Below are positions 501 to 27,835 of a DNA stretch of 31,830 nt, piece after piece. The notes beneath the pieces were generated by a model that did not search any database, was not told the DNA's origin, and was given only the letters and a program-made list of their open reading frames with translations. The translations under genes were made by a program, and so were the position numbers. The stretch comes from a virus: positions 1 through 31,830 of IMG/VR virus record IMGVR_UViG_3300030106_001999, one strand, 5' to 3'. The number at the start of each line of letters is the position of its first letter. Position 1 is the first letter of the stretch.

Positions 501-919
501 GCAGCATGGATGAAATAAACGTTCTTAACGTCGTCGCCTGCCACTCCAACATCTCGACCTCACGCATTTTAGGGAAGGAACGGACACGGACAGTCGTACG
601 TGCGCGGACCCTGGCCGCCCTGTGTTTTCGACACTTGGGTTACAGCTATCCAGAGATCGGGAACGCGCTTCGCCGACACCACACGACCGTCCGGCATCTG
701 ATCACGAAGGCCGACGAAGACGCACACGGGTACGCAGAGAGGTGCCTCAAAACCATTAAGGAAACAAGCTATCTGTTGCGGTACCTGCCGCCGACGCCTT
801 TCAACACTTCCTTGACATGGGTTGTCACCGACCCCCGCACCGACCAAGAGGTCATGTTGCCGCGTGGTTCGTCTGACTTCCTGTCCGCCGTGTTGCTTTC
901 GGAGGCTGCGGACGAGTGA
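497..919 (+). CDS. DnaA domain IV-like DNA-binding protein (no ATPase domain), 140 aa
   Basis: Start ATG 497 (MSSMDE...), overlapping the preceding stop. Residues 24-70 match the C-terminal DNA-binding domain of the replication initiator DnaA: a basic entry helix (RTRTVVRARTLA), a helix ending in RHLGYSYPEIG, then the signature loop and recognition helix with RRHHTTVRHLI, which corresponds to the RDHTTV-type motif that reads DnaA boxes. The AAA+ ATPase (domain III) is absent, and residues 95-140 are not recognisable. A free DnaA DNA-binding domain could occupy DnaA boxes at the phage origin, or compete with host DnaA at oriC. It is followed with overlap by WhiB, so both are probably made early. 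Domain assignment is strong; role is inference. Confidence 0.8.
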   Translation: MSSMDEINVLNVVACHSNISTSRILGKERTRTVVRARTLAALCFRHLGYSYPEIGNALRRHHTTVRHLITKADEDAHGYAERCLKTIKETSYLLRYLPPTPFNTSLTWVVTDPRTDQEVMLPRGSSDFLSAVLLSEAADE

Positions 920-1215
920 CCAACGAGTGGATGCAGGACGCAGCATGCCGCGACTATGACACCGACCTGTTCTTTCCGGTCAAAGGAGTTGCCGCTGGGA
1001 GAGCATTAAGGCGGGTAGAGGCTGCCAAAGCGATTTGCCGTCGCTGCCCGGTCATTAACGACTGCCGCGAATACATCTTCGACCGCCCGAGATACGACGA
1101 CGATTGGGGGATATATGCGGGGATGACGCCTGAAGAGCGGCACGCCGCTGATTTTAAAATTCGTAACGAGCGCCAGCGAGAGCGCCGCCGACAACTTCGG
1201 TACAACAACAAGTAA
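916..1215 (+). CDS. whiB: WhiB-family iron-sulfur transcriptional regulator, 99 aa
   Basis: GTG start at 916, overlapping the previous stop (GTGA), with GGAGG at 901-905. The protein has the four invariant cysteines of WhiB proteins, C11, C41, C44 and C50 (CxxC plus a fifth-residue spacing), which hold a [4Fe-4S] cluster. It also has the turn WGIYAGMTPEER (residues 64-75, family form G[VI]WGG), followed by a basic C-terminal tail (residues 82-99, Arg/Lys-rich) for DNA contact. WhiB proteins bind the primary sigma factor of actinobacteria and redirect transcription; phage copies such as WhiB of mycobacteriophage TM4 alter host septation and superinfection. Cytoplasmic. It indicates an actinobacterial host. 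Confidence 0.92.
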   Translation: MTNEWMQDAACRDYDTDLFFPVKGVAAGRALRRVEAAKAICRRCPVINDCREYIFDRPRYDDDWGIYAGMTPEERHAADFKIRNERQRERRRQLRYNNK

Positions 1216-6752: not shown

Positions 6753-7394
6753 TTATTTCCGGGATTGTTTCTTCATGGCAGCCCACAAATGATTCATAGA
6801 ATTGCTCTCGTACACGCCAGTCATGCGGCCCTTAGCAATCACTTCACGCCAATGATCTGGCGAGTTCACGGCGGCTGAACCCACGCCTGCCACGTGGACA
6901 ATCCACTCGTCATTGTCGGGGTCGTGAGTCATAAACATTTCTTCGCCTCCTGGCGATGGTTGGGGGCCATCAATCCAGCCCTGACTTGTGAGTGCCTGGA
7001 CATGCCACCACTCTTTCGGCCACACCGTCTGCCTTAGCCCCCATTTTTCCATAAACGGCCTGACAGCTTTATCGGCCATAGCCCGGGTTACGTTCCACGG
7101 ACGTCTTAAATCTACGGCGTGCGAATACCCATCAGCTTGAACCTGGTGCCATGACCCACGCGGTTTCCACTTATACGGGAAATTGCGACCAGTTCTTAAA
7201 ATCCGGTCAGGGTTCGCTGCCAAGTTAAAGCCACGCTTGCCAGCTTTGTACCCGTCATACAGATACTTCTGCTTTGAATACAACCGAGTTGCGGGATACG
7301 TTCCGTAACGCTTCAACTTGGGTTCCGACAGCAAACCGCGTATCCGGAACTCAAGAATCGGGTGTGTCCCGCGAAGGTTTTCGTCAAGCGACAT
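6753..7394 (-). CDS. Endolysin, M15 (VanY-like) peptidase, 213 aa
   Basis: Start ATG 7394, coupled to the holin stop in TAATG. Residues 78-96 carry the zinc-peptidase signature in spread form (GSWHQ at 80-84, SHAVDL at 91-96), and residues 126-133 give PKEWWHVQ, with E128 as the likely general base and H131 as a zinc ligand; D95 and H83 or H92 complete the site. M15 peptidases cut the D-Ala or L-Ala linkages of peptidoglycan peptides. There is no signal peptide, so it should need the adjacent holin to cross the membrane. The C-terminal 60 residues (155-213) form an additional small domain, perhaps wall-binding. The other PG-cutting enzyme in this phage (4863-5711) is an exported lipoprotein. 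Confidence 0.8.
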   Translation of the reverse strand: MSLDENLRGTHPILEFRIRGLLSEPKLKRYGTYPATRLYSKQKYLYDGYKAGKRGFNLAANPDRILRTGRNFPYKWKPRGSWHQVQADGYSHAVDLRRPWNVTRAMADKAVRPFMEKWGLRQTVWPKEWWHVQALTSQGWIDGPQPSPGGEEMFMTHDPDNDEWIVHVAGVGSAAVNSPDHWREVIAKGRMTGVYESNSMNHLWAAMKKQSRK

Positions 7395-7648
7395 TAGTCG
7401 TTTAGGTCAGCTTCAGTAGCTGGGTCAAGATTTACGACACTTGGGTTTGGCCCGCCAATCGGCCCTTTAACCGCTGCATAGCTTTTCACAATAGAAAGCA
7501 CACCAGCGGCCACAGACGCCTGCACGGCGTCAAGAAGGTCAATGTCAAGAATCCCAGCACCGTCAGTACCTACAAGAGCTACAAACGTCTGGCACAAAGT
7601 CGACAATGCCCGCTCAACAGAATCTTTAAACACAGTCGATGAGAACAT
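7394..7648 (-). CDS. Holin, r1t type, 84 aa
   Basis: ATG 7648, 17 nt after the upstream membrane gene. The pattern SVERALSTLCQTFVALVGTDGAGILDIDLLDAV followed by ASVAAGVLSIVKSYAA matches the r1t holin family found next to endolysins in many actinobacteriophages: a first helix with Ser/Thr/Cys, a GTDGAGI turn, then a second hydrophobic helix. Two membrane spans are expected. It should permeabilise the inner membrane and release the M15 endolysin, whose start overlaps this stop (TAATG). Confidence 0.85.
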   Translation of the reverse strand: MFSSTVFKDSVERALSTLCQTFVALVGTDGAGILDIDLLDAVQASVAAGVLSIVKSYAAVKGPIGGPNPSVVNLDPATEADLND

Positions 7649-7665: not shown

Positions 7666-7842
7666 TCAGTCTCTACCCAAGAAAACACCAACGAGATGGG
7701 CAGCCAGACTGCCGCCCGCAATCCACAACCCCCACTCCAACGTGCGGCCCGACATCGTAATCAACACTAACGCAACGCCCCCGACCGTCCACGCCAACGC
7801 AGACGACTCCAACAGCACCGCTTTAACAAACCGTTTAATCAT
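7666..7842 (-). CDS. Two-span membrane protein, possible second holin or antiholin, 58 aa
   Basis: On the minus strand, ATG at 7842-7840 with AGGGG about 6 nt upstream and a stop at 7668-7666. Two hydrophobic helices are clear: ALAWTVGGVALVLITM (about 15-30) and WGLWIAGGSLAAHLVGVFL (about 38-56), separated by SGRTLE; the N terminus is basic (MIKRFVK). Size and position between the secreted protein and the holin suggest a holin partner. It overlaps the end of the preceding gene by 8 nt. No family is recognised; an antiholin is equally possible. Confidence 0.7.
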   Translation of the reverse strand: MIKRFVKAVLLESSALAWTVGGVALVLITMSGRTLEWGLWIAGGSLAAHLVGVFLGRD

Positions 7843-9322
7843 TTCTACCCCTAGAACTACGGCGAGATGGCCCTCCAGAAGTAGGTGCTCCTCCCGGGCC
7901 AGCAGTAGGTGCTGGGGGAGCAGGCGGTTTCGGTCGCGCGGCTGCCGCCATCGCTACACCGGCAGACTGTACAGCAATAATCGCACGACGGTCTTCGACA
8001 TCGACCCGGCTACCGGCAGGCACATACTCTTCGGTCGCGCCAGCAAACACGTCGACTTCTTCCTCAAACGCTTCTTTGACCTCGTCTTCCTGGTCGTTCA
8101 GGGCAACAGAGATAGCGCCGACCTGCTCGTCGGTCAGCGTGTCGAACGCCTCATCCTGCACGACTTCTTCGATGTCTTCGACCGTGACCTCTTCTTCGGT
8201 CAACACCTCAAAGACTTCTTCAGCTAGTTCCTCGTCGGCAATCTGCTCAACTAGTTCAACGGCTTGTTCAATTTCAGGCGGGGACGAGGGAGGCGGCAGG
8301 AGGAGGGTCGTCGTCGTCGTCGTCGCCGGAGGAATCGTGGTTGGGGCCACGGTAGTTGAAGTTGTAGTCGTAGTAGGTGCCTGGGTCGTTGACGTTGTAG
8401 GCGGGGCCGTTGTGGTGGGAGGCGGCAGGGTTGTTGTCGTACTCGTAGTAGTGGATGTTGACGGTGAGGGCGGGACCGTCGTCGGGGGCAACGACGTAGT
8501 AGTCGTGGTGGGAGGCACCGTCGTAGTCGGCGGCACCGTTGTGGTGGGAGGCGCCGTTGTTGTCGGCGGCACCGTCGTCGTAGTGGTCGTGGTCGTGGGC
8601 GGCACCGTCGTCGTAGGCGGCACCGTCGTTGTCGTTGTCGTTGTCGTCGTTGGAGGCAACGAAGTCGTAGTGGTAGACGTAGTGGTTGGGGCTGCCGTTG
8701 TAGTAGTTGGGGGCAACGTTGTAGTCGTCGTGGTCGTCGTCGTAGTGGTAGATGGGACTGCCTCCGTCGTCGTGGTTACCGGAACCGTCGTCGTAGTCGT
8801 TGTTGTGGGAGCAACCGTAGTCGTTGTTGAAGTCGTCGTCGTAGTAGTCGATGTGGTCGTTGTTGAAGAGGTCGTTGTGGTGGTCGGAGGCGGGGGGCTG
8901 TACCCGTCCGTAGACCAGGTAACGGTTGCTGAGCCTTCTGGAACATCTCTTCCAGATTGTTCTTGGTACGTTCTGAATCGCAATACATAGTCACCAGCGG
9001 GCGGCGTCAGATGCAGTTTTGACCCGTAACAGTTGTTTTGTGGATTGTGGTTGCCGTCGTCATCGTCGGCGACCATATTGCCAGACGCATCAAACAAGCG
9101 TAGCCACGGGTCAATCGTTGTGCTGAAATCCAAAGGGCACGCCACGTTTGAGTCAAACGTGACATGCAACAATGTTTCGCCGTCAAGAGTTAAAGGGTGG
9201 TCGTAATAGGTCTGATTGGGTCCGAGAGCGACGCTTGTTAAAGCCTGCGCTGCTGGCGCAAACCACGCTGTAATATAAAAAAACACCAACAGTGCTCTGC
9301 TGGTCCGCCGCCACGCCCGCAC
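7835..9322 (-). CDS. Secreted Thr/Pro-linker protein with beta-sandwich and acidic domain, 495 aa
   Basis: GTG start at 9322. Order of parts: signal peptide (1-27, basic MRAWRRTSR, hydrophobic core, cleavage likely after AAQA); a beta-sandwich-like domain (30-135) with DPWLRLFDASGN, an acidic DDDDG loop and GDYVLRF, resembling the PPC/bacterial pre-peptidase type; a Thr/Pro/Ser linker of roughly 200 residues (147-345) made of runs such as TTTTTVPP; an acidic helical region (about 350-435, EEVTVEDIEEVVQDEAFDTL); and an RRAIIAVQSAGVAMAAA segment, then a Pro-rich basic tail. The middle and end resemble surface proteins of Acidimicrobiia as I recall them. No good ribosome site precedes the GTG. 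Possible role: host-surface interaction or exclusion, or a virion adhesin. Confidence 0.7.
   Translation of the reverse strand: MRAWRRTSRALLVFFYITAWFAPAAQALTSVALGPNQTYYDHPLTLDGETLLHVTFDSNVACPLDFSTTIDPWLRLFDASGNMVADDDDGNHNPQNNCYGSKLHLTPPAGDYVLRFRTYQEQSGRDVPEGSATVTWSTDGYSPPPPTTTTTSSTTTTSTTTTTTSTTTTVAPTTTTTTTVPVTTTTEAVPSTTTTTTTTTTTLPPTTTTAAPTTTSTTTTSLPPTTTTTTTTTVPPTTTVPPTTTTTTTTVPPTTTAPPTTTVPPTTTVPPTTTTTSLPPTTVPPSPSTSTTTSTTTTLPPPTTTAPPTTSTTQAPTTTTTSTTVAPTTIPPATTTTTTLLLPPPSSPPEIEQAVELVEQIADEELAEEVFEVLTEEEVTVEDIEEVVQDEAFDTLTDEQVGAISVALNDQEDEVKEAFEEEVDVFAGATEEYVPAGSRVDVEDRRAIIAVQSAGVAMAAAARPKPPAPPAPTAGPGGAPTSGGPSRRSSRGRND
8280..8890. repeat. Low-complexity Thr-codon tract
   Basis: About 600 bp of GTC/GTA/GTT/GTG-like triplets on the plus strand, i.e. 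ACN threonine codons on the minus strand, interrupted by CCN (Pro). This is a coding minisatellite inside the 495-aa secreted protein, likely to vary in length by slippage. It also produces spurious Val-rich frames on the plus strand. Confidence 0.85.
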
Positions 9323-9338
9323 AGGAGGACACTACCAG

Positions 9339-9761
9339 ATGAGCAAAGCCAAACAGAAAGGCACTACGGGCGAGAACGAAATCCTTGAACTGCTACAGCA
9401 AGCAGGGTTTCTTGACGCTCACCGCACCGAAGCATCCCGAGAATCGCACGACATTCATTGCAAACCGTTTATTGTCGAAGTCAAGTTTCGCAAAACCTGG
9501 GCGCTGTTCGACTGGATACCTAAACTTCGCAAAGTCGCAGGCAATAAACCTTGGGTGCTGTTCGCAATCCACGGCGACCGCCGCACCGACAAAGGCCGAC
9601 ACGTCGGACGCGTAGCCGTCCTAGACGCAGACTTCGCAGCCGAACTCATGCACCTATGGTGTGCTACCGTTAAACCTCGTGGACGCGTCAACCGGGATAC
9701 TGTCGATCCTGACTATCCTGCTGCTGCCGTGGATGGCCTGGGTCAGCAAAATTCTGATTAG
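9339..9761 (+). CDS. PD-(D/E)XK nuclease, Holliday-junction-resolvase-like, 140 aa
   Basis: ATG 9339 with AGGAGG (9323-9328) upstream. The nuclease core reads as KGTTGENEILELLQQAGF (E12/E14), D38 in HDIH, and E47-x-K49 in IVEVKFRKTW, the order E-D-ExK of archaeal Hjc-type and related phage resolvases. A Gln-rich loop and a terminal DPDYPAAAVDGLG tail follow. It could resolve recombination or replication intermediates before packaging. It is transcribed against the surrounding minus-strand blocks and diverges from the secreted protein gene with only 16 bp between the two starts. Substrate is inferred. Confidence 0.78.
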   Translation: MSKAKQKGTTGENEILELLQQAGFLDAHRTEASRESHDIHCKPFIVEVKFRKTWALFDWIPKLRKVAGNKPWVLFAIHGDRRTDKGRHVGRVAVLDADFAAELMHLWCATVKPRGRVNRDTVDPDYPAAAVDGLGQQNSD

Positions 9762-9861
9762 TATCCAGGTGCGTCTGGCCCGTGGCGAAGAAAACTTTGA
9801 CCGCGTTCGTGACACGCTAACCGACCACGAAGCCAGACTTCGAGCGTTAGAAGCGCGTTAA
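9661..9861 (+). CDS. Membrane-anchored coiled-coil protein, 66 aa
   Basis: GTG at 9661 (alternative GTG 9679) opens a frame that overlaps the end of the nuclease gene by about 100 nt. Residues 12-36 form a transmembrane helix (GILSILTILLLPWMAWVSKILI). Residues 40-66 form an amphipathic helix with heptad-like Leu/Val spacing (ENFDRVRDTLTDHEARLRALEAR). No ribosome site is obvious, which leaves the exact start uncertain. Its stop TAA at 9859-9861 shares TTAA with the stop of the facing exonuclease gene. The organisation recalls XhlA-like hemolysis accessory proteins in reverse order, but I would not name it. Confidence 0.55.
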   Translation: MLPLNLVDASTGILSILTILLLPWMAWVSKILISIQVRLARGEENFDRVRDTLTDHEARLRALEAR

Positions 9862-13416: not shown

Positions 13417-13808
13417 TATTCACCCAACGCATCCCGCACAAGTCCCATGCCACGCCTACGACTGGTAGCAGTCGCAAACGTCTTGCCAGAGTTTATCTCA
13501 TGCTTTTCTTCCGCTTTGGCCTCCAACCGTGCGGAACCATTAATGGACGGCGGTTGTACTCCGTCCTGACGCAAACGCTTATATGCGTCCATATCGACAT
13601 TCTTATTTTTCTCGGCCTGTTTCGTCGCTTCAAAATCAATAACATTGTTGCGCGACGGGACAGCAGACGGCGACACATACGGCATCCCCAACATTTTGCC
13701 CATCACCGCGCCACACTCCATGCAATAAATATCCGGTTCGTCTTTGAACCCGTGCAACGCTTCCTCGATCGCCCCGCAAACTTTGCAACGGTAGTCGTAC
13801 CTTGGCAT
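13416..13808 (-). CDS. FmdB-type zinc ribbon protein, 130 aa
   Basis: ATG 13808 within a TAATG overlap. The N terminus MPRYDYRCKVCG...YCMECGAVM gives two CxxC knuckles (C8/C11 and C29/C32), the FmdB zinc-ribbon signature. The remainder is charged and helical (KRLRQDGVQPPSINGSARLEAKAEEK) and ends in RRRGMGLVRD. FmdB-like proteins occur in phage structural operons with unknown role, perhaps as small head or tail components or assembly factors. The two starts/stops around it (13808 and 13416) both overlap, indicating co-translation with the repeat protein and the adaptor. Confidence 0.75.
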   Translation of the reverse strand: MPRYDYRCKVCGAIEEALHGFKDEPDIYCMECGAVMGKMLGMPYVSPSAVPSRNNVIDFEATKQAEKNKNVDMDAYKRLRQDGVQPPSINGSARLEAKAEEKHEINSGKTFATATSRRRGMGLVRDALGE

Positions 13809-14566
13809 TAACGAACCTCCACAGAATATCCAGCGCCTACCAGCGCATCTAATTCTTCTGATGTTAGATCAGTGGGGGACTCGTGCCCACCCAACAACTC
13901 CCGACTAACCAACGCTGGATTAATCGGCTGACGGGTCGTGACCGCCCCACTCGTCAAAATAAACACGTTACGGCCCCGCGCCCCAGGTGTACGGAACCGT
14001 GCCAAACGGCGCGCTGGGTCGTTCGTGAAATACGGAACTACGTCTAGCTGCGGCACAATGTTTTCGGTCGTCGGCACATACCGCATCGCAAGGTCTATCG
14101 ACGGCACTGTAGCAACCCCGTCAATCTGCGAAGGCGTAACCGTTATGCCCGCACCTTCGCCAACCGTTGCCTCAGGAGCTGTTGCAGCAGCCGCTACAGC
14201 CGAAGGCGTAACTGTAACGCCAGTTCCTTGCGTAACTGTCGGGTCTGGGATTGTTCCAGCAACTGCAACAGTAGAAAGACTGACTGTAACGCCAGCGCCT
14301 TGAGTGACGGTAACCGACGGCACCGCGGCAGTGCCAGTAATTGTGCTGGCCGCAACATTTGCATCTGCGGTTACAGTCACCGCAGGGGTCGTTGCCGCTG
14401 TCGCAATAACCGCAGGTGTAACGGTAACACCGGCACCTTGAGTAACTGTTACCCCTGGAACCGTCGAAGTCCCAGCTACTGTCGAAACAGCGACGGTAAC
14501 ATTAACGCCGCCGTCGTACCTAAGCAGGTCTTGGCGGTAGTCGTTAGATGACCGGTACGCGGTCAT
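13808..14566 (-). CDS. Repeat-rich beta protein, possible tail spike or whisker, 252 aa
   Basis: ATG 14566, 4 nt after the fibre gene's stop. Residues about 20-160 are six imperfect repeats of 22-24 residues, with cores such as VTVTQGAGVTVTP and TTPAVTVTADANVA. The alternating Val/Thr pattern with Gly turns is that of a beta-solenoid. The C-terminal 90 residues are different (YFTNDPARRLARFRTPGARGR... then a helix DLTSEELDALVG) and may anchor or trimerise it. It lies beside the two fibre genes and before the FmdB-type and adaptor genes, so a virion surface role is likely. No family recognised. Confidence 0.65.
   Translation of the reverse strand: MTAYRSSNDYRQDLLRYDGGVNVTVAVSTVAGTSTVPGVTVTQGAGVTVTPAVIATAATTPAVTVTADANVAASTITGTAAVPSVTVTQGAGVTVSLSTVAVAGTIPDPTVTQGTGVTVTPSAVAAAATAPEATVGEGAGITVTPSQIDGVATVPSIDLAMRYVPTTENIVPQLDVVPYFTNDPARRLARFRTPGARGRNVFILTSGAVTTRQPINPALVSRELLGGHESPTDLTSEELDALVGAGYSVEVR
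14090..14510. repeat. Imperfect coding tandem repeats, about 66-72 bp
   Basis: Six copies of a 22-24-codon unit lie within the 252-aa gene. Near-identical stretches such as GTAACTGT or GTAACGGTAAC recur at roughly 14190, 14210, 14280, 14420 and 14445 on the plus strand, so the repeats are still visible at DNA level and probably expanded by duplication. Confidence 0.75.
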
Positions 14567-14570
14567 GAGG

Positions 14571-15683
14571 CTACGCCGCCTCTAGCGCAGCGACCCGTTG
14601 CCGCAGAAACTGACATTCCGCAATTAGAATTGGAACAATCTTAGAGTAGTCAAGCGCCGCCGCCACGTACTGCTCTTCGCTGTCAGCAGTGGCTGGCTCA
14701 ACCGCCGGAGCGTTCACAATCGACTCAGGCAACACGTCAATAGCTTCTTGAGCAAACAAGCCGATCTGACCGGTGACATCGCCTTCTTTCCAGTCAAACT
14801 CGTGAACCTGCAACCCATCAATAATCGATCCGATGCGCGAAGCAGCAGCAATGCCCCGATCGGTTTTAAGGGTCGAATCAGACGTTGTACTGAAATTCAC
14901 CGACGCCGAGCCAGTACCGCGCACCGACCCGATTGTCGTGTTGTTGCCCTTCCGAAACAGAATCCAGTAGTCGTTCGTACCAGGGTCCGTGCTGTCAGTG
15001 CCGATCTGCATAATGCCGCACGTCACAGCGTTAGAAGAAACATCCTGATCACGCTCAAACCGAAACGCCCGCTGGTCGGTACTAACAACTTCAATCTGGC
15101 TGTTCGGGGAAGCATCACCGATGCCGACGCTGCCCGACGAAGTAACCGTTACGCGATCCGCAGCAGACCCGCCAGTGCCTGTCCCGAAACGCAACTGCAC
15201 CCCGCCACTCGTGCCGTCACCATCCGCATGGATGTACGCACCCACCCCAGCATTGTCAGTGTCGCTAGTGTAAAACTCAACCGACGCCGCAAGTTCATCG
15301 TCCGCCAAGCCAGTATCGGTGCCTGTAAACCGCAATACAGGAGCGCCGCTTTTAATGTCAAGGTCAGTAGCAGGCGACGTAGTGCCGATACCAACGCGAT
15401 CATTCGTCGCATCCACATGCAACGTGTCTGTATCAACCGTTAGACCGCTAAGCGTTGGAGCAGTCGCCCAACCAGACGTACCTGAACCAGTGCCAGCCAG
15501 CACCGAATTGGCTACAGCGTTTGAATCGCCAGTACCAACTTTCGTTTCCAACGCGATAATCGCACCAGAATGATTCGTATGAACGGCATCATGCTCAAAC
15601 CCAGAGTCGTCCATCTCCGTCGAAGCAGACGGCGACGGTTGCTGTGAGCTTGTGTCCAGCGACCCTGGGTAATTTGTAGCCAT
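14571..15683 (-). CDS. Tail fibre with S74 chaperone domain, 370 aa
   Basis: ATG 15683 in TAATG. Residues 1-80 (MATNYPGSLDTSS..., KVGTGDSNAVANSVLAGTGSG) share the opening of the neighbouring 402-aa fibre. The middle is beta-rich with VGIGTTSPATDLDI-type repeats typical of fibre proteins with self-processing. Residues about 265-370 form the intramolecular chaperone of the S74 family: SDSTLKTDRGIA, EFDWKEGDVTGQIGLFAQEAIDVLPESI, then a coiled coil ECQFLRQRVAALEAA. The chaperone helps trimerisation and is cut off at the Ser. A receptor-binding role is likely. Confidence 0.85.
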   Translation of the reverse strand: MATNYPGSLDTSSQQPSPSASTEMDDSGFEHDAVHTNHSGAIIALETKVGTGDSNAVANSVLAGTGSGTSGWATAPTLSGLTVDTDTLHVDATNDRVGIGTTSPATDLDIKSGAPVLRFTGTDTGLADDELAASVEFYTSDTDNAGVGAYIHADGDGTSGGVQLRFGTGTGGSAADRVTVTSSGSVGIGDASPNSQIEVVSTDQRAFRFERDQDVSSNAVTCGIMQIGTDSTDPGTNDYWILFRKGNNTTIGSVRGTGSASVNFSTTSDSTLKTDRGIAAASRIGSIIDGLQVHEFDWKEGDVTGQIGLFAQEAIDVLPESIVNAPAVEPATADSEEQYVAAALDYSKIVPILIAECQFLRQRVAALEAA

Positions 15684-15808
15684 TACTCTTCCTCAACAGC
15701 CTGCGGCTGCGACAACTTCGCAATCTGCACCGTTTGTACAGCAATTTCAAAGTGTAGAGGGAACCGTTCACGGATTACTTGCACTACCTCCTCCGCAGTA
15801 ACCTCCAT
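15683..15808 (-). CDS. Small acidic protein between the two fibre genes, 41 aa
   Basis: Minus-strand ATG at 15808-15806 overlaps the stop of the 402-aa fibre (TAATG), and its stop TAA (15685-15683) overlaps the ATG of the 370-aa fibre, again as TAATG. Residues 1-30 (MEVTAEEVVQVIRERFPLHFE...QIAKL) look like one helix followed by a short strand. This perfect chaining makes it very likely translated. Possible fibre assembly factor or small virion component; function unknown. Confidence 0.7.
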   Translation of the reverse strand: MEVTAEEVVQVIRERFPLHFEIAVQTVQIAKLSQPQAVEEE

Positions 15809-17016
15809 TAACCCTCCAGAGCTTCAAGTCTTACTGTTAATTCCTGGATAGCCTTTACCATCGGGGCAATAAACTCTGTGTACGCCAAACTTTGACGTTC
15901 CATACCGTCTTCGTCTACATCAGACTGCCACATTGCGTGTGCATCAGCGTCAGAACCAAGAACTGTCGCAATCTCTTGCGCGACAAACCCGTACCGCACA
16001 TCGCTTGACGTTTCAGAATCTCCACGCTTGTTGAATTTGTAACTAACGGCACGCAACGACTTCACAAAATCAAGACCACGAGCCAGATCCGCAACGTCAG
16101 TCTTATCTCGTTCATCAGACGTGTTCAACGCATTATCAGCGAACACGGTCGTCCAACGCCTACCGCTAGTACCAAGAGTCATGGCACTATCCGCAAACGG
16201 TTTATGCGCTGAGTTATCCGTCGACACACGCGCCCCGTCGCCCGCCACAATAATTACAGCACCAGAATCTCCGTAAATGCCCTCGTCAGCGTCATTAAAC
16301 TGAATAGCCGGGGCTGACGCTGAACCGCTAGGCGCAACAATCGCGCCCGAGGCAGTCAGCCCAGTCAAAGTACCAACCGACGTAACGTTCGCCTGAGCAG
16401 CAGTCGTCAGCGTCCCAGCCAGGTTCGTGGCAGTAACCGTCGTAAACGTCGGAGACGCAATCAACTGATCGTTGCCGACAGCGTTGTCAGCAATCTTTGC
16501 CTCAGTAACCTGATTGTCCCCAATGTGCTCAGTGTCGATTGCCCCAGCAGCAATATGCTCCGAGTCGACAGCGTCGTCTTCGATTTTGGCTCCGGTTACC
16601 GCATCAGCAGCAAGCTCCGTCGTGTCGACAGCGCCAGCAGCGATCTTCGCCTGCGTCACGTTGTCATCAACAATCGACGCAGTAACAACAGCGCTTGAAG
16701 CCAACTGGTCGGCCCCCACGGCGTCGTCAGCAATCTTGGCCTGCGTCACCGCATCATCAGCGATCATCGCAGTAGCCACCGTCGCCCACGCCGACGTGCC
16801 CGAACCAGTACCCGTCAAAACAGAGTTAGCAGCCGGAGTCGAAGCCCCAGTACCAACCTTGTCCTCAATGGCGTTAATTGCCAAACCAGTATTTTGATGC
16901 AACGAATGATGGGCAGGCCCGCCAGTCGTAGACGACAACGCCTCGTCAGCAGACGGGTGCGTATCATCACCAACCGTCGCAGCAGTATCAACGGAACCAG
17001 GAAAGTTAGTAGCCAC
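15808..17016 (-). CDS. Tail fibre with ADDAV repeats and S74 chaperone, 402 aa
   Basis: GTG start at 17016, with GAGG about 7 nt upstream. Residues 1-75 share MATNFPGSVDT and KVGTGASTPAANSVLTGTGSG with the 370-aa fibre. Residues about 80-190 are short repeats (ADDAVTQAKIADDAVG, AAGAVDTTELAADAV, IEDDAVDSEHIAAGAI), a shaft seen in many phage fibres. The end (about 300-402) is an S74 chaperone: NTSDERDKTDVADLARGLDFV, VSYKFNKRG, YGFVAQEIATVLG and a coiled coil VKAIQELTVRLEALEG. It is probably trimeric and receptor-binding. Confidence 0.85.
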   Translation of the reverse strand: MATNFPGSVDTAATVGDDTHPSADEALSSTTGGPAHHSLHQNTGLAINAIEDKVGTGASTPAANSVLTGTGSGTSAWATVATAMIADDAVTQAKIADDAVGADQLASSAVVTASIVDDNVTQAKIAAGAVDTTELAADAVTGAKIEDDAVDSEHIAAGAIDTEHIGDNQVTEAKIADNAVGNDQLIASPTFTTVTATNLAGTLTTAAQANVTSVGTLTGLTASGAIVAPSGSASAPAIQFNDADEGIYGDSGAVIIVAGDGARVSTDNSAHKPFADSAMTLGTSGRRWTTVFADNALNTSDERDKTDVADLARGLDFVKSLRAVSYKFNKRGDSETSSDVRYGFVAQEIATVLGSDADAHAMWQSDVDEDGMERQSLAYTEFIAPMVKAIQELTVRLEALEG

Positions 17017-21507: not shown

Positions 21508-22274
21508 TATCGTCCCCGAATCCCCAACGCCTGCATCAACACGCCAGCAGCACCAGCGTAATCCATCGCCTTCGCCTCCTCAGGAGCCTGCTCACGAGCA
21601 AACGCTTCAGCACGGGCGCCCACACTGATCCCAGTCGCACCCGAAGCCTGCAACCCGTGAATCATCTTTACAAAATCACGTTGTTCCTTAGGCGTAGCGC
21701 GGCGGCCAGTCACAGCCGAAGACGCCTGCTTCGCAGCAGCCGCCAACCCAACTGGATCAATGTAGCTAATTACACGCCCACCCTTTTGGGACTTTGCTTT
21801 CGCTTCCTGCATAACCGCCATAAGTTCTTCAGGCGACCGCTGCCCGCTTTCCTTCATCAACACATCAAGAAAGTCAGTGCCTAGGTTCATCTCGGCCTGT
21901 GCTGCTGCTAGACCAACCGCAGTGCTGACCTGCTGCACAAAGTACTTGTTGTTCAGTTCGCCGTTGTCGTCAAACATGTCGTTGATGTCGTCGTAAACCC
22001 CGACGTTAAACATGTCAATAGCCAGCAGTGCCTTGTCTTCAGCACTGAACCCGTCCAGCGCGTTTGCAAAGTCTGATGCAAACAACAGTTCGGGAGCTTC
22101 GCCGTACTCCAACCGAAACCCGCCACGGCCTTCCATCCGGACTTCTTCGATTGCTCGCACAGGATCGCCAAAGCCAATAAACGGACCAGTCACGGGGGTC
22201 GCAGAAGCAACCGCTTGTTCACGAGTCACTGTGAGAGTTGACTCGTTTCGCCATTTGTCTTCATAGTCACTCAT
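21507..22274 (-). CDS. Helical internal-virion-like protein, 255 aa
   Basis: ATG 22274, overlapping the giant gene's stop (ATGA, 22274-22271). After a short N terminus (MSDYEDKWRNESTLTV) comes a compact domain with LLFASDFANALDGFSAEDKALLAIDMFNVGVYDDINDMFDDNGELN, then helices KYFVQQVSTAVGLAAAQAEM and LDVLMKESGQRSPEELMAVMQEAKAKSQKG, and a small Ala-rich end. No catalytic motif is visible. The DMFDDNGELN loop looks calcium-binding but that is weak. Likely part of the same ejection/internal head set. Confidence 0.55.
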   Translation of the reverse strand: MSDYEDKWRNESTLTVTREQAVASATPVTGPFIGFGDPVRAIEEVRMEGRGGFRLEYGEAPELLFASDFANALDGFSAEDKALLAIDMFNVGVYDDINDMFDDNGELNNKYFVQQVSTAVGLAAAQAEMNLGTDFLDVLMKESGQRSPEELMAVMQEAKAKSQKGGRVISYIDPVGLAAAAKQASSAVTGRRATPKEQRDFVKMIHGLQASGATGISVGARAEAFAREQAPEEAKAMDYAGAAGVLMQALGIRGR

Positions 22275-25200
22275 GCGAAGAAACTCCGAACTAATGCGCC
22301 TTCCTCAATGAAAGACCCCACAACAATCATATCCCTAGAGAAGAAACGGTCGAAGATTTGTGAAAACTCCGGCCGGTCAGCCAGCAACTCTCGCTCTTCT
22401 TCGAAGAACAACAACAAATCAGTGTTGGAATCAGCCCGCAAGCTCAAATTGCCGCCCTGCGCCTCGCGCCGCACCAACTCGTCCTGCACAACAGTACGCA
22501 ACTCCAAGTAATCCAACACGTGCCGGTACGACGGGCGGCTACGCATCCGCTCATCTTCAGCAACCGCAACAAACCCGTCAACAACGCGTTTCATCTTGGC
22601 TGAAGACGACCCAAAGTCGTTTAGCTCTTGCGCCCAAGCAGGGTACTCCTGAGCCAGCAACGTCATCTCGCGATCTCGGAACTCCTTGAGATCAGCCATC
22701 GTAGAATGATTCATGTGAGACGGCAGGCCAGCGTCCTCGCGACGTGACTGCTCGCCACGAACAACTTCTTGCAACTCGTTGTACTTCATCCAACCCAACT
22801 CGATCTGCGGGTCGGCAAGCGTGTCAAGCAACGGCTTGCGCTCACGACGCGTACTCGGATCAGACGGGCTGACCTGCATCTGCTGCTGACGCCGGTACAC
22901 CGCCTGCGAGAACACAGCCTTCTCAGACATCGGGCCAACGCTGCCAGAAATGTACGCACCAATCTCAGGATGGGCTTGCGCCAAATCCTGCAACCGGATG
23001 TACTCGTTTTCGTTCACGACAGACGCAAACACGCCATCGTTCAACTCAGTCATCCGAGTCGTCAACGTAAAGAACTCTTCGCCATGCTCAGACAAGAACC
23101 GAGCGTTGCCCTCCATCGTCCCGTACTCTTGCTGCAAACGACGCGCTTCACGCATCAGTTCGTCATACGGCGACGCAACCGTTGTTGAAGAAGGCGAAAA
23201 CAACCCTGTTCCGATGCGGAACAGATGGAACGTGCGGGCACGCTCGTTTGCGATTTCGATTGCTTCGTTAACGTCACCCAAATCAGTCGGGTCAATCGGA
23301 TCGCCCGCAAGCTCTCTTTCAACCGCATAGTCAATAAACATCGACTGAACAACGCGCTCGTTGCGAGGCGAGCCAATCACCAAGTCACGTACCGACTGCG
23401 CGTAGCTAGGCAACTGGGCAGCAGTCAACCGGCCAATGAACCCTTCTTCGGGATGCCCGAACGGGAACAAGAACTCGGTGACCTCAACCAAATCAGGGTC
23501 ACGCAACACAGCTTCACGCACCGGGATAGTCACCAACGGACCAAACCCTGGAGTCGTGGACTGCAACATCGTTGCCAACCCCTCCTTCGACATTTTGATT
23601 TCGCCGCCCATGTCGCGCACAACGTTAGGAGTCAGCAAGTTCTGCACTTTGGTCGGCATCAAACCCCAGATGCTTTCCACGTCGTTCTCGCCAGTCGGCG
23701 CAGCCGTAGGCCACTGGAACATCAAGTAATCGGTTTCGTCATCGCCGAACTCGACAGTGACTTCGGTAATGCCGAGAGCTTCAGCGTTCCAAGGCTTCTG
23801 ATACAAGCGGAAAGTGTTTGCTACGAAATACGGGTTGTCGATAGCGATGCCAGCCCAACGCGAAAACACCTCAGCCCAAGCGTTGTAGAACGGCATCAAG
23901 TTCGACACTGCCTCGCCAAACTTGGTCTGCTCAGTCAGGTCGTACAACAACCGGCGTGTTTCGTCCAACGCAGACTTCTGAGCCTGCTTTTGGATAGTCA
24001 TGATTGCGCGCTGGTTGACAACAGCGTTGCCCGCAGCGTCAATCTGCTTTGCCATCAACCGGTTAGCTTCGCGCTCGTACACCGCTTGGAAATACGGGTT
24101 ACGAGCAATGTTGTCAGTGACCTGGGTGCCCAGCAGATCAAACGCGTAATCGCTCTTCCGGCGGATGTAATCAAACACCCCGTTGCCTCTAGGCGAGTTG
24201 TCAGGAGCCAACGTGACCCCGAACCCTGCGTGGCGTGACTGAACGTCAGCAACAAGATCAGGTATCTTCTTATCGGGATCGACTTTCTGTAGCTTCGCTT
24301 CAATCTTCTGCCAGCTCAACTCGCCGCCGTTAGCAACTTCCTCACGCAACTCACGGAAAACGCCGTCAGCGTAAGCAGCAGGCAACAGGTTTTCGTAGTT
24401 CTGAACCAACGCCTCCGCTGCCAGCGGCAAATCTTCATCAGGCAAAATGCCCATGCGGCGGCGCAACGCTTCGTTTTCCCTCAAGTGTCCAGCAAGCCTG
24501 GCTTGACGATCGCTAAGCGCTTCGTTTGACCAAACAATGTCGTAGAACTCGCGGAACTCCTTGCTGCCGCCTGGAGTAAAAATGTCCGCAGCACGAGCAA
24601 ACTGCGACGCAAACTCGTCTTTCGTGCCCTGCCCATACCGGTACTGCTTGAACCCCTTGTAGAACTGCTCCAGTTCCCTAGACGCAGTGCCATGCACAGA
24701 ACGCGTGGTTGCTTCTACAGAGTTCTTGCTAGACACCTGACGGCGGGTCTGCTCAATAGCGCGACGCTCATCACCGTATGCGCTAGTCAGCCGGTAATTG
24801 CTGACCGACAGATGCGGCACACCCGAGTCAATCATTATCTTGTCGGCTTGATCCAGAAGGTTCGTGGCCTTCTGCATTTTCTCAAACTTCTCAACGTCGT
24901 CCAGAACAACCCGACCCTTGCGGATCATGTTGGCTGCCGCGTCAATCTGAACAGAACGGACGCCTGCGCTGAGATTGTCAGAAAACTCCAACGCCTCTTC
25001 CATCAACGAACGCCCTTCTCTTTGAAGAGCCTGGCCGACCGTTCGCTTGGCGTTGATTTCGGCAACCTGCAACATGCGGCGACGACGCGAGTAATGCGAA
25101 ATTCCCGCATACGTCACACCCACAAACGGGTTCACAACAAGACCGACACCAGCACTCTTCAACGCAGAGTTTGCAGCGCGCCGGTTCTTGTTCTGGGCCA

Positions 25201-27835
25201 TTGCTTCGTTAATAAGCTCGCGATAAACGCCCTTCAACCACTTATCAGGGGCCTTGACTTGCTTCTGCACCGCTTCAAGCGCATCAGCAACCGTTGCGAA
25301 AGAACCTTCTTCCTGACCCAGCTTTTTCGCAATCGCATTTGTAATGTGATCTAGATCCTGCGTGTTCTCCAACGCCTGCGGGGCCTTGCGAGTCAACGCT
25401 TTCGCCGCATAGGTACGCGACAAATTAGGCATGTTCTTCATCAACATGCCCAGACCCTCAATACCGCCCAACGTGCCAGCGATACGAAGCTGCTCATCCA
25501 AACTGACCCGCATCGGCCACTTCGGCGTCAGCAACACCATCGGCTTCCACACGTTCATAGACGCGTCAGCCCCACGCTGCCCCGCTTTGTAACCAGCCCG
25601 GACAGCCTCCAACGGCGTAGACACGTAACCAGGCAGCCGACTCATGCGGTCAAGCCGGTTCAACTCGGCAGTCACCAAGTCCCAACGAGGCAACACCCGA
25701 GTCGTGCCAATCTGCGAAGGCGACATCATCTTGTCGTAGGAAATAACTGCCGTCTCGCCACCTTCACGAATAATCTGGGTAGTTCCACCCGGCAAAATGT
25801 TCAAAGCATTTTCGGTTATGTGCCGGTCTTTGATGCCGTTAGCCTCAGCCAACGCTTCTTCCAGACTATTAAAGTTTACCTTGAACTCTTTGGCAGTCTC
25901 GTCAAACTTCGTAACAAGCGCCTCAACAGTCTCGTCAAAGATCTGCAACGCAACGCCGTACGCACCATCTTGTACCAGCCCTCGTTCAAGCTGCTGCTGA
26001 AAACGGCCAAGAGTCGTGCCAATCTCTTCCTGAGAAATCAACCGACTCTTCGGCTCGCCTTTTGGCGTAGGCAACTCAACTTCGCCAGCCTGCCGCAACA
26101 TGCGCTCAAACTGAGAATACGCATTCGGGTCGCGCGTGTCCAACGTAGTCTGCGGCAACTTTGACGTGTAAATCTTGAACCGCTTGCTGCCACGCCCAAT
26201 AACACGAGGAACCAAACGCTCCTCTACGTGCAAGCCAGTAATGCTGTTGCGGGCATACTCACGGTTGCGTTGCAGCAGCCGCTGAAGCGGCGACGCATAC
26301 GGCAACTCGTCCATAACCGGCAGTGCCTTGTTAACCGACGCTAGCAACGGGTCCGTACGGACCAGTATCTGATTAAGCGCCATGACCGTCAGCGCTGTGT
26401 CTTCAACCGTCTGGAACGACAAGTTAAAGTTGTCGTTCAAATCAAACTGGCCGTACCCGCCAACAACGCCACGGTTCTGAGCGTTTTGCAAAGCCACGTT
26501 TAAATCAAACATTGCTTCAAACGGGATGTCTGCTACCGCAGTGTTGAAGTCAACAACCTCAGGCAGCAGTTGGTCTTTACGTGCTTCAAGACGAGCACGC
26601 TCATCCGCAGGCATCTTCTTCTTGTCAGGCTTAACAGCGTCGTCAGCCAACCGCCTCAAAATTGATTCATGCTCAATAACCTTCGGCATGAAGTTCGTGT
26701 CGTTGAGGTACGGCATTAGATTCTGAGCAAGCTGCCTAGCCTCAGCAACAGCACTCACGTCACCGGCAACGCCACGCATCATAAGATTGCGCGCCTTAGC
26801 GGTCTGGCCTTGAGCAACCGCTGAAATTGCTTCTTGCGGCATCTTTGGGAATGCGCTTCTAACAGCGGCATACCGGAGCGCAACAGCTTCGTCGGTTATC
26901 CCGGCGTACTTGGCATCATCAAGAACGCCGACAACCGCTTGGCCGTTACCGCCAATACCGCCGTTTAGTTCTTTCCACTGGTTAGTTTCAAGAAACTGAT
27001 AGATGCTTTGCCGCTGCCACTCTTCAACCATCCCGCCGTGGTTGCTTGACCCAGGCTGACCCCACGCCCGACGAGCCGCATCGGGGTTAGCACCAATAAC
27101 TTGTGCAGGATCATAACCAGCACGATGAGCAGGAGAACGAGGACTGCGTCTACCAATTTCGTAAACACGCGTGCCCGAACCAATCGTGGCAGCAGCACCG
27201 CGACGGCCAATAACTGTGCCGCCAACAGAAACAGCACCGGTACCCTTAACCGCTTTAGCTGCGCCTCCCGTTGCCCACGACACAGGGTCAAGGAACTCCT
27301 GCACAAAGTCAGCAGTGCCCGACAAAAGGTTAAACACGGGGTCTTGCCGAAGAGCGTTAAACTCGTTTTCGTTAAACGGGTCAACGTCTCTGTTCATTTC
27401 AAACGCTGCCATCGACTGCCCAAACGTGCGAGCGTCGTTGACTTCCCATGCTTTGCTGTACGTGTCAAAGTCCAAGAGTGCGCTAGCGCCGTTAGCTGTT
27501 GCTGCGTTCAAAACCGTAAACGCTGTGCCAAGCGGCCGGTCAACAACTTCGTCGATAACCCACTGCCACGCATCAAGCGTGGGAGTAATGATCGCACGGG
27601 ACGCACGGACCTCTTCAGGCAACGCCCCGATCAAAGAGCCGCCAACGCCTTCAGGCCCGAACGCGCCTTGAAGCGACTTGCCCATCAAGTCTTCAAGAAC
27701 CGAACCGTAAAGAATCTCAGCAGCTTCGCCAGGGTCGCCTTGGAACAGTTCGCTGGCTGCTTTGCCACTGTCTAAAATGAAGTCAACGCCGCCTTCACCA
27801 ATATCAGTAAGGCCGTTCCAAATGCCTTTTAGCAT
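22271..27835 (-). CDS. Giant internal virion/ejection-like protein, 1854 aa
   Basis: ATG 27835, 2 nt after the upstream stop. Almost wholly helical and charged, with scattered hydrophobic pieces: near the start (about 90-115), and about 885-915 (SALKSAGVGLVVNPFVGVTYAG) directly followed by a basic SRRRRM. The stretch about 1270-1340 (MAKQIDAAGNAVVNQRAIM, LYDLTEQTKFGEAVSNLMPF, YNAWAEVFSRWAGIAIDNPYF) resembles the LMPFFNA region of large polyvalent phage proteins (LPD38-like). No tape-measure-like repeats or tail genes accompany it, and it lies between portal and scaffold. I infer a DNA-ejection or internal-core protein, like T7 gp16 or N4 vRNAP in place but not by sequence. No active site found. 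Confidence 0.6.
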   Translation of the reverse strand: MLKGIWNGLTDIGEGGVDFILDSGKAASELFQGDPGEAAEILYGSVLEDLMGKSLQGAFGPEGVGGSLIGALPEEVRASRAIITPTLDAWQWVIDEVVDRPLGTAFTVLNAATANGASALLDFDTYSKAWEVNDARTFGQSMAAFEMNRDVDPFNENEFNALRQDPVFNLLSGTADFVQEFLDPVSWATGGAAKAVKGTGAVSVGGTVIGRRGAAATIGSGTRVYEIGRRSPRSPAHRAGYDPAQVIGANPDAARRAWGQPGSSNHGGMVEEWQRQSIYQFLETNQWKELNGGIGGNGQAVVGVLDDAKYAGITDEAVALRYAAVRSAFPKMPQEAISAVAQGQTAKARNLMMRGVAGDVSAVAEARQLAQNLMPYLNDTNFMPKVIEHESILRRLADDAVKPDKKKMPADERARLEARKDQLLPEVVDFNTAVADIPFEAMFDLNVALQNAQNRGVVGGYGQFDLNDNFNLSFQTVEDTALTVMALNQILVRTDPLLASVNKALPVMDELPYASPLQRLLQRNREYARNSITGLHVEERLVPRVIGRGSKRFKIYTSKLPQTTLDTRDPNAYSQFERMLRQAGEVELPTPKGEPKSRLISQEEIGTTLGRFQQQLERGLVQDGAYGVALQIFDETVEALVTKFDETAKEFKVNFNSLEEALAEANGIKDRHITENALNILPGGTTQIIREGGETAVISYDKMMSPSQIGTTRVLPRWDLVTAELNRLDRMSRLPGYVSTPLEAVRAGYKAGQRGADASMNVWKPMVLLTPKWPMRVSLDEQLRIAGTLGGIEGLGMLMKNMPNLSRTYAAKALTRKAPQALENTQDLDHITNAIAKKLGQEEGSFATVADALEAVQKQVKAPDKWLKGVYRELINEAMAQNKNRRAANSALKSAGVGLVVNPFVGVTYAGISHYSRRRRMLQVAEINAKRTVGQALQREGRSLMEEALEFSDNLSAGVRSVQIDAAANMIRKGRVVLDDVEKFEKMQKATNLLDQADKIMIDSGVPHLSVSNYRLTSAYGDERRAIEQTRRQVSSKNSVEATTRSVHGTASRELEQFYKGFKQYRYGQGTKDEFASQFARAADIFTPGGSKEFREFYDIVWSNEALSDRQARLAGHLRENEALRRRMGILPDEDLPLAAEALVQNYENLLPAAYADGVFRELREEVANGGELSWQKIEAKLQKVDPDKKIPDLVADVQSRHAGFGVTLAPDNSPRGNGVFDYIRRKSDYAFDLLGTQVTDNIARNPYFQAVYEREANRLMAKQIDAAGNAVVNQRAIMTIQKQAQKSALDETRRLLYDLTEQTKFGEAVSNLMPFYNAWAEVFSRWAGIAIDNPYFVANTFRLYQKPWNAEALGITEVTVEFGDDETDYLMFQWPTAAPTGENDVESIWGLMPTKVQNLLTPNVVRDMGGEIKMSKEGLATMLQSTTPGFGPLVTIPVREAVLRDPDLVEVTEFLFPFGHPEEGFIGRLTAAQLPSYAQSVRDLVIGSPRNERVVQSMFIDYAVERELAGDPIDPTDLGDVNEAIEIANERARTFHLFRIGTGLFSPSSTTVASPYDELMREARRLQQEYGTMEGNARFLSEHGEEFFTLTTRMTELNDGVFASVVNENEYIRLQDLAQAHPEIGAYISGSVGPMSEKAVFSQAVYRRQQQMQVSPSDPSTRRERKPLLDTLADPQIELGWMKYNELQEVVRGEQSRREDAGLPSHMNHSTMADLKEFRDREMTLLAQEYPAWAQELNDFGSSSAKMKRVVDGFVAVAEDERMRSRPSYRHVLDYLELRTVVQDELVRREAQGGNLSLRADSNTDLLLFFEEERELLADRPEFSQIFDRFFSRDMIVVGSFIEEGALVRSFFA

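Follow-up and report, generated by a model that had tools for sequence, protein, structure and literature searches.

The stretch of DNA analyzed here, hereafter the window, is the 31,830 nt IMG/VR virus record IMGVR_UViG_3300030106_001999, and the single gene of interest within it lies on the minus strand. This gene begins with a GTG codon at position 9322 and its stop ends at 7835; the features of its product and of its neighbors are collected in Table 1. A plus-strand reading of the same interval was rejected, the frame being interrupted by stops. Close relatives were compared, and against L002, for example, the gene has a dN of 0.053 and a dS of 0.686 in the segment coding for the N-terminal tip domain and a dN of 0.030 and a dS of 1.047 in the C-terminal module. 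Because dN is far below dS in both, we conclude that the gene encodes a real protein under purifying selection, and this low dN/dS (well below 1), together with the 48 homologous loci recovered in one scan, shows that it is not a chance reading frame.

Table 1. Features of the stalked-protein gene, its product and the adjacent genes in the window, with the short forms of the gene found in relatives
Feature	Residues or length	Positions	Strand	Basis
Stalked-protein gene (secreted, predicted type I membrane protein)	495 aa	7835..9322	-	ORF calling, homologues, purifying selection
Signal peptide, cleavage after AQA	1-27	9242..9322	-	sequence; hydrophobicity; n-h-c layout recurs in homologues
PPC-like beta-sandwich tip with DDDDGN loop	28-143	8894..9241	-	AlphaFold2 and structure comparison
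Thr/Pro stalk	142-346	8285..8899	-	composition and codon use
Acidic helical domain ending in FEEEVDVFAGATEEYVPAGSRVDVED (conserved C-terminal module)	347-444	7991..8284	-	alignments; homologue model
Hydrophobic helix AIIAVQSAGVAMAAAA after RR, predicted membrane anchor	447-462	7937..7984	-	hydropathy; homologue model
Tail rich in Pro and Gly, with RRSSRGRND as its basic end; predicted to be cytoplasmic	463-495	7838..7936	-	sequence; basic end conserved
Two-helix membrane partner, whose start overlaps the stalked gene's stop	58 aa	7666..7842	-	ORF; conserved in loci; phrog_29041; fusions
r1t-type holin gene		7394..7648	-	PF16945 E = 9.8e-11; phrog_443
Endolysin-like gene, VanY-like peptidase by motif		6753..7394	-	E = 1e-25 to L002 homologue
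Short forms: signal peptide, helix and basic end, partner next		L162 4471-5004; L163 4765-5004; L164 559-798; L165, L171 and L173 4765-5004		

The signal peptide was divided by eye into the regions MRAWRRTSR, ALLVFFYITAWFAPA and AQA, and its h-region has a mean Kyte-Doolittle hydropathy of 1.8-2.1. The stalk consists largely of threonine and proline (118 Thr and 41 Pro in 205 aa), and its origin as a simple DNA slippage artefact is ruled out by the mixed use of its threonine codons, all four of which occur, the longest run of any single one being five. At the other end of the protein, alignments reveal a C-terminal module common to all the homologues, with FEEEVNIF, YVPxGS, an RR pair, a hydrophobic helix and a basic end. 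At 16 residues the helix is short, and its hydrophobicity is only moderate (mean hydropathy 1.81 in the window and 1.46-2.42 across 51 distinct homologues), and the model of a homologue has a long helix at this segment. Because the conserved YVPxGS...RR motif is followed by such a helix and then by a basic tail, we predict a type I membrane protein with its N-terminus outside the cell and its C-terminus inside. A sortase-processed surface protein was considered and rejected, as the motif is YVPxGS with the RR pair a few residues later, and LPXTG is absent. Comparison of the C-terminal module with PDB folds gave a best VIA Z of 5.5 and nothing above noise, a result that does not in itself imply a new fold.

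AlphaFold2 models the tip with high confidence (mean pLDDT 96.1) as nearly all beta. The best structural matches of the model are 1nqj, the collagen-binding domain of ColG, and 5sv5, a PPC domain from a Bacillus collagenase; each has a VIA Z of 10.0, with an rmsd of 2.0-2.2 across 87-89 residues and an identity of 11-12%. The best E value with Foldseek was 3e-4. As modeled, the tip is a domain of the PPC/collagen-binding fold, and among the aligned tips D44, D61 and D62, which may be calcium ligands, are invariant. At the level of sequence the window protein has no match to the Pfam PPC model, nor to any Pfam family or PHROG at E <= 0.1, and no meaningful match came from comparing the tip sequence with those in the PDB. 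The PPC and bacterial collagen-binding domains share the predicted fold; here, by contrast, a phage protein bears it as its outermost domain. A sequence-only reading of this DNA had proposed, at the same position, a signal peptide, a beta-sandwich with an acidic DDDD loop, a Thr/Pro linker of about 200 residues and an acidic helical domain. The gene is indeed there, but on the minus strand; the signal peptide is upheld by the by-eye reading and by hydropathy, the sandwich by AlphaFold2 and by the DDDDGN in the sequence, the linker by its measured length, and the helical domain by the model of a homologue. The Pfam and PHROG searches with the window protein gave no match to a phage tail family. 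That reading had overlooked three things: the predicted membrane helix and basic tail at the C-terminus, the two-helix partner whose gene overlaps this one, and the way in which N-terminal domains are exchanged as modules.

The ORF of the partner was too short to pass the length threshold of the initial ORF listing. Its product has a basic N-terminus, two hydrophobic stretches and the family signature WTxAGTGLVLITLSG, the sole basis for its predicted N-in, C-in topology being the positive-inside rule. All 24 of the partner sequences scanned match phrog_29041 (best E = 8.3e-34; window copy E = 2.9e-6), a family with no assigned function whose tie to the stalked protein, and whose fusions with it, emerge from the present analysis. 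No match to a named holin family emerged from the PHROG and NCBIfam searches, phrog_29041 being the only PHROG hit and no NCBIfam match being informative; the candidate identity of a sortase was rejected, the partner having some 55 residues and lacking the conserved catalytic residues. The coupling of the two genes is close to invariable. The partner lies beside the homologue, or is fused to it, in 110 of 113 module loci, a count which, like the others given here, measures consistency and not probability because the loci lack independence, with many of them near-identical and a few contigs represented twice. It is adjacent in 101 loci by pattern and in 3 more by inspection (L070, L074 and L088), and it is fused in frame to the C-terminus of the homologue in 6 (L032, L038, L115, L090, L098 and L128); as for the remaining three, one contig ends 154 nt past the gene and two are close relatives of L070 that were not inspected. 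In 100 loci the start of the partner falls between -11 and +39 nt of the stop of the stalked gene. The association also holds in reverse: a search with the partner alone yielded 80 loci, in 73 of which the module lies upstream; another 6 carry a short form of the gene, and the last lacks any upstream sequence. In total, the partner was found in at least 589 viral stretches.

The stalked gene heads a lysis cassette, as the sequence-only reading had it, and is followed in the window by the partner, the r1t-type holin and the endolysin-like gene. The last of these has no direct family match; its homologue in L002 matches the endolysin phrog_2649. In the relatives as well, the next genes are often holins, VanY or peptidoglycan-binding endolysins: VanY was recognized in 12, an r1t holin in 6 and endolysin phrog_2649 in 13 of 48 proteins scanned. 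The exceptions are L073, L115 and DSL-LC01, in which the adjacent gene is not a recognizable endolysin. WhiB genes are characteristic of the actinobacteria and their phages, and one is present in the window (916-1212, E = 1.8e-18) and in 18 of the 26 records searched. Because of these genes in the window and its relatives we take the hosts to be actinobacterial; the earlier suggestion of an Acidimicrobiia-like host lineage is supported at this broader level. The closest relatives of the window's capsid protein, at about 40% identity, come from uncultured phages and Streptomyces phages. Just upstream of the stalked gene, within the minus-strand late block, are two plus-strand ORFs (9339-9761, nuclease/resolvase-like by eye, and 9661-9861); since they interrupt the block, the lysis cassette may need a promoter of its own. 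Elsewhere on the minus strand are two consecutive tail-fibre-like genes (14571-15683 and 15808-17016), each with a terminal S74 intramolecular chaperone domain, a gene for a protein of VTVTPA and VTQGAG repeats (13808-14566; phrog_23524, E = 1.7e-7) and, in the late block, a gene for a very large protein of 1854 aa (22271-27835).

A scan for the C-terminal module found it encoded in 386 viral stretches, in 2 contigs among 84,980 prokaryote genomes and in none of 72,556 plasmid records. The two genome contigs, L128 (JAURLY010000091.1) and L129 (CALKUW010000343.1), are both metagenome-assembled and titled as non-actinobacterial; in L128 a phage-type endolysin gene lies directly downstream of the module gene, and both are probably mis-binned phage contigs. 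The genome titles are Gammaproteobacteria and Flavobacteriales, and the sequence inside is of the actinophage type. Among 50,697 annotated phage records the module occurs only in Actinomycetia phage DSL-LC01, itself metagenome-assembled (PMC10611076), as the hypothetical protein WJZ48438.1 (tblastn, 49% identity with 65% of the query covered). A structure search of BFVD gave as its significant matches uncultured-phage proteins without known function and one unnamed entry; the uncultured Caudovirales proteins A0A6J5P167 and A0A6J5QEK5 share the module, with some 45-55% identity among the best rows. The only annotations of these Caudovirales and DSL-LC01 copies are as uncharacterized or hypothetical proteins, or they are named for a different domain (fibronectin type III, PA14, TerB-like).

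Such a distribution bears directly on the proposal, made from the sequence, that this architecture is rare in phages and was borrowed from the surface proteome of the host. Rarity in phages is not supported, and at least for the conserved part of the protein the contrast of 386 viral stretches with two genome contigs and no plasmids argues against a captured host surface protein. Only the N-terminal domain belongs to a type that is common in cells. PPC, PA14 and fibronectin type III domains, like Thr-rich linkers, do occur in cellular proteins, and the PPC fold of the tip and the Thr-rich stalk speak for a capture without any phage-specific role; but both the module and the partner are specific to phages, and of all the explanations weighed here we regard this one as the most improbable.

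The N-terminal part of the protein is exchangeable. PA14 is carried by 9 and fibronectin type III by 2 of 32 homologues, among which other domains also occur, and typing with HMMs assigned 67 tips to a PPC-like class, 23 to a PA14-like class, 12 to a third beta-type and 4 to others, with 8 truncated sequences. C-modules that are 100% identical over 80 aa were found joined to different tips. The exchange is well illustrated by L120, whose tip is PA14-like, and L124, which has a different beta domain: their DNA is 89% identical upstream through the signal-peptide codons and 82% identical downstream, and the roughly 440 bases coding for the tip fail to align. In-register swapping of this kind suits a tip that binds a ligand and is under diversifying selection, and such exchange between near relatives is, we argue, the pattern to be expected of a ligand-binding tip.

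What the tip would bind, and where, can be envisaged in more than one way. The protein could be displayed on the host late in infection, its tip occupying or masking a phage receptor or other envelope sites and so blocking the adsorption of related phages, or of progeny, to the doomed cell or its debris, with the partner serving as an anchor or export aid. The predicted N-out topology fits the sequence-only suggestion of an altered infected-cell surface and, like the long stalk, the binding-type domains of the tips and their swapping between near relatives in the manner of receptor-linked modules, it favors such a display. But the gene is located in a lysis cassette with holin and endolysin and not among early genes, the short forms have neither tip nor stalk, and this view does not explain why a two-helix partner should be obligate; we consider display for exclusion possible, if somewhat unlikely. 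Decoration of the virion, with the stalked protein mounted on the particle and binding host cells, would also account for a tip as variable as a receptor-binding module, and 1 of the 32 homologues matches the phrog_8482 "attachment protein" (E = 6e-5). The signal peptide, the predicted membrane helix with its basic tail and the membrane partner in the same operon nevertheless disfavor it, the S74 tail fibre genes are separately encoded in the window, and we hold this earlier suggestion to be very doubtful.

Six relatives (L162-L165, L171 and L173) have, in place of the gene, a short frame, 79 aa long in five of them, which encodes a signal peptide, a few dozen residues, a hydrophobic helix and a basic end, and is followed by the partner. 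Comparison of five of these loci with L034, where a full-length gene occupies that place, showed all five to be syntenic with it. Because the short forms lose the ectodomain alone, we regard the membrane part and the partner as the constant core of the system and the ectodomain as its variable part. The retention of just the helix, tail and partner would also suit a role in the control of lysis timing, in which the stalked protein senses a signal from outside (superinfecting virions or the state of the wall) and regulates the partner, itself a class II holin or antiholin. The tight coupling and fusion with a small two-helix protein, the position in the cassette and the precedents of T/RI (PMC11413866) and LysF1a/LysF1b (PMC13056207) point in the same direction. 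Yet the partner is not a recognized holin and a separate holin lies downstream, there is no evidence for any sensed signal, and a single common signal would not require such wide swapping of tip types; a timing function thus seems to us unlikely.

We tentatively prefer, while granting it less than an even chance, that the stalked protein and its partner are a membrane pair of the actinophage lysis cassette, acting at lysis through a variable ectodomain that binds the envelope of the host itself; display for exclusion comes second in our order of preference and the control of timing third. In phages infecting actinobacteria the two genes would form a membrane module, with the stalked protein as its large subunit: exported by its signal peptide, this protein would be held in the membrane by its single C-terminal helix and basic cytoplasmic tail, with the co-translated partner beside it. 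The helical domain and the stalk would bring the tip through or past the cell wall, where it might bind a component of the envelope and help to disrupt or detach that envelope after the holin and endolysin have acted, much as has been proposed for the corynephage LysZ. Topology, ligand binding and a physical complex of the two proteins are here inferred from sequence features, and a role in lysis is suggested by the position of the gene, its coupling to a holin-like small protein and the precedents of LysZ and LysF1a/LysF1b. Against this lysis-stage reading, the membrane helix is short and no more than moderately hydrophobic, the partner showed no similarity to a named holin in the searches above and a holin is already present downstream, L073, L115 and DSL-LC01 lack a recognizable endolysin in the adjacent place, LysZ has been described with the opposite topology (PMC13056207), and an essential role in envelope binding is hard to reconcile with the absence of the ectodomain from some phages; moreover, gene position and fusion are evidence of association and not of function. 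A fuller version, to which we give rather little credence as a whole, would see in the pair a phage-specific two-subunit lysis apparatus for Gram-positive actinobacteria, with a constant membrane core and a stalk that spans the wall and bears an exchangeable ectodomain matched to the host, such that a strain-specific ligand in the envelope would determine lysis or its timing.

LysZ and LysF1b are recent examples of how phages may break the actinobacterial envelope beyond the action of holin and endolysin. Hundreds of phage contigs carry the module described here, although the annotated copies, few of which were found, are listed as hypothetical proteins. A role at lysis would make it a modular lysis factor of wide occurrence, with tips matched to the host; receptor masking would make it an exclusion system widespread among the uncultured actinophages. 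In both cases the exchangeable tip could be a marker of host envelope type that can be read from sequence.

In the open-access literature we found no earlier description of the obligate pair, its fusions, the exchangeable tip or the short forms. Three known systems nonetheless resemble it in part, each compared here by its published description. LysZ of the Corynebacterium phages CL31 and Cog is a 177 aa protein with one helix and an extracellular part, and has been proposed to be spanin-like (PMC13056207). Like the stalked protein it is a one-helix membrane protein encoded among actinobacteriophage lysis genes and proposed to act on the envelope; it differs in its proposed N-in-C-out topology, whereas the stalked protein is predicted to be N-out-C-in and has a signal peptide, a stalk, an exchangeable tip and an obligate two-helix partner. 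In the T4 system the secreted antiholin RI binds the periplasmic domain of the holin T (PMC11413866), so that there too a secreted signal-peptide protein works with a membrane lysis protein, but with neither stalk, nor tip exchange, nor fusion. LysF1a and LysF1b of the mycobacteriophages Girr and NormanBulbieJr are both needed for efficient lysis, the former being N-in-C-in with two helices and the latter N-out-C-in with one (PMC13056207). The likeness to our pair is that of overlapping lysis-cassette genes for a small two-helix protein and a one-helix protein, the latter predicted in our case to be N-out-C-in; the gene order, however, is reversed, and of the 124 aa of LysF1b 22 are extracellular and a long charged domain lies in the cytoplasm, whereas the mass of the stalked protein is predicted to be extracellular. 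The parts of the stalked pair have known analogues among the accessory lysis membrane proteins of actinophages.
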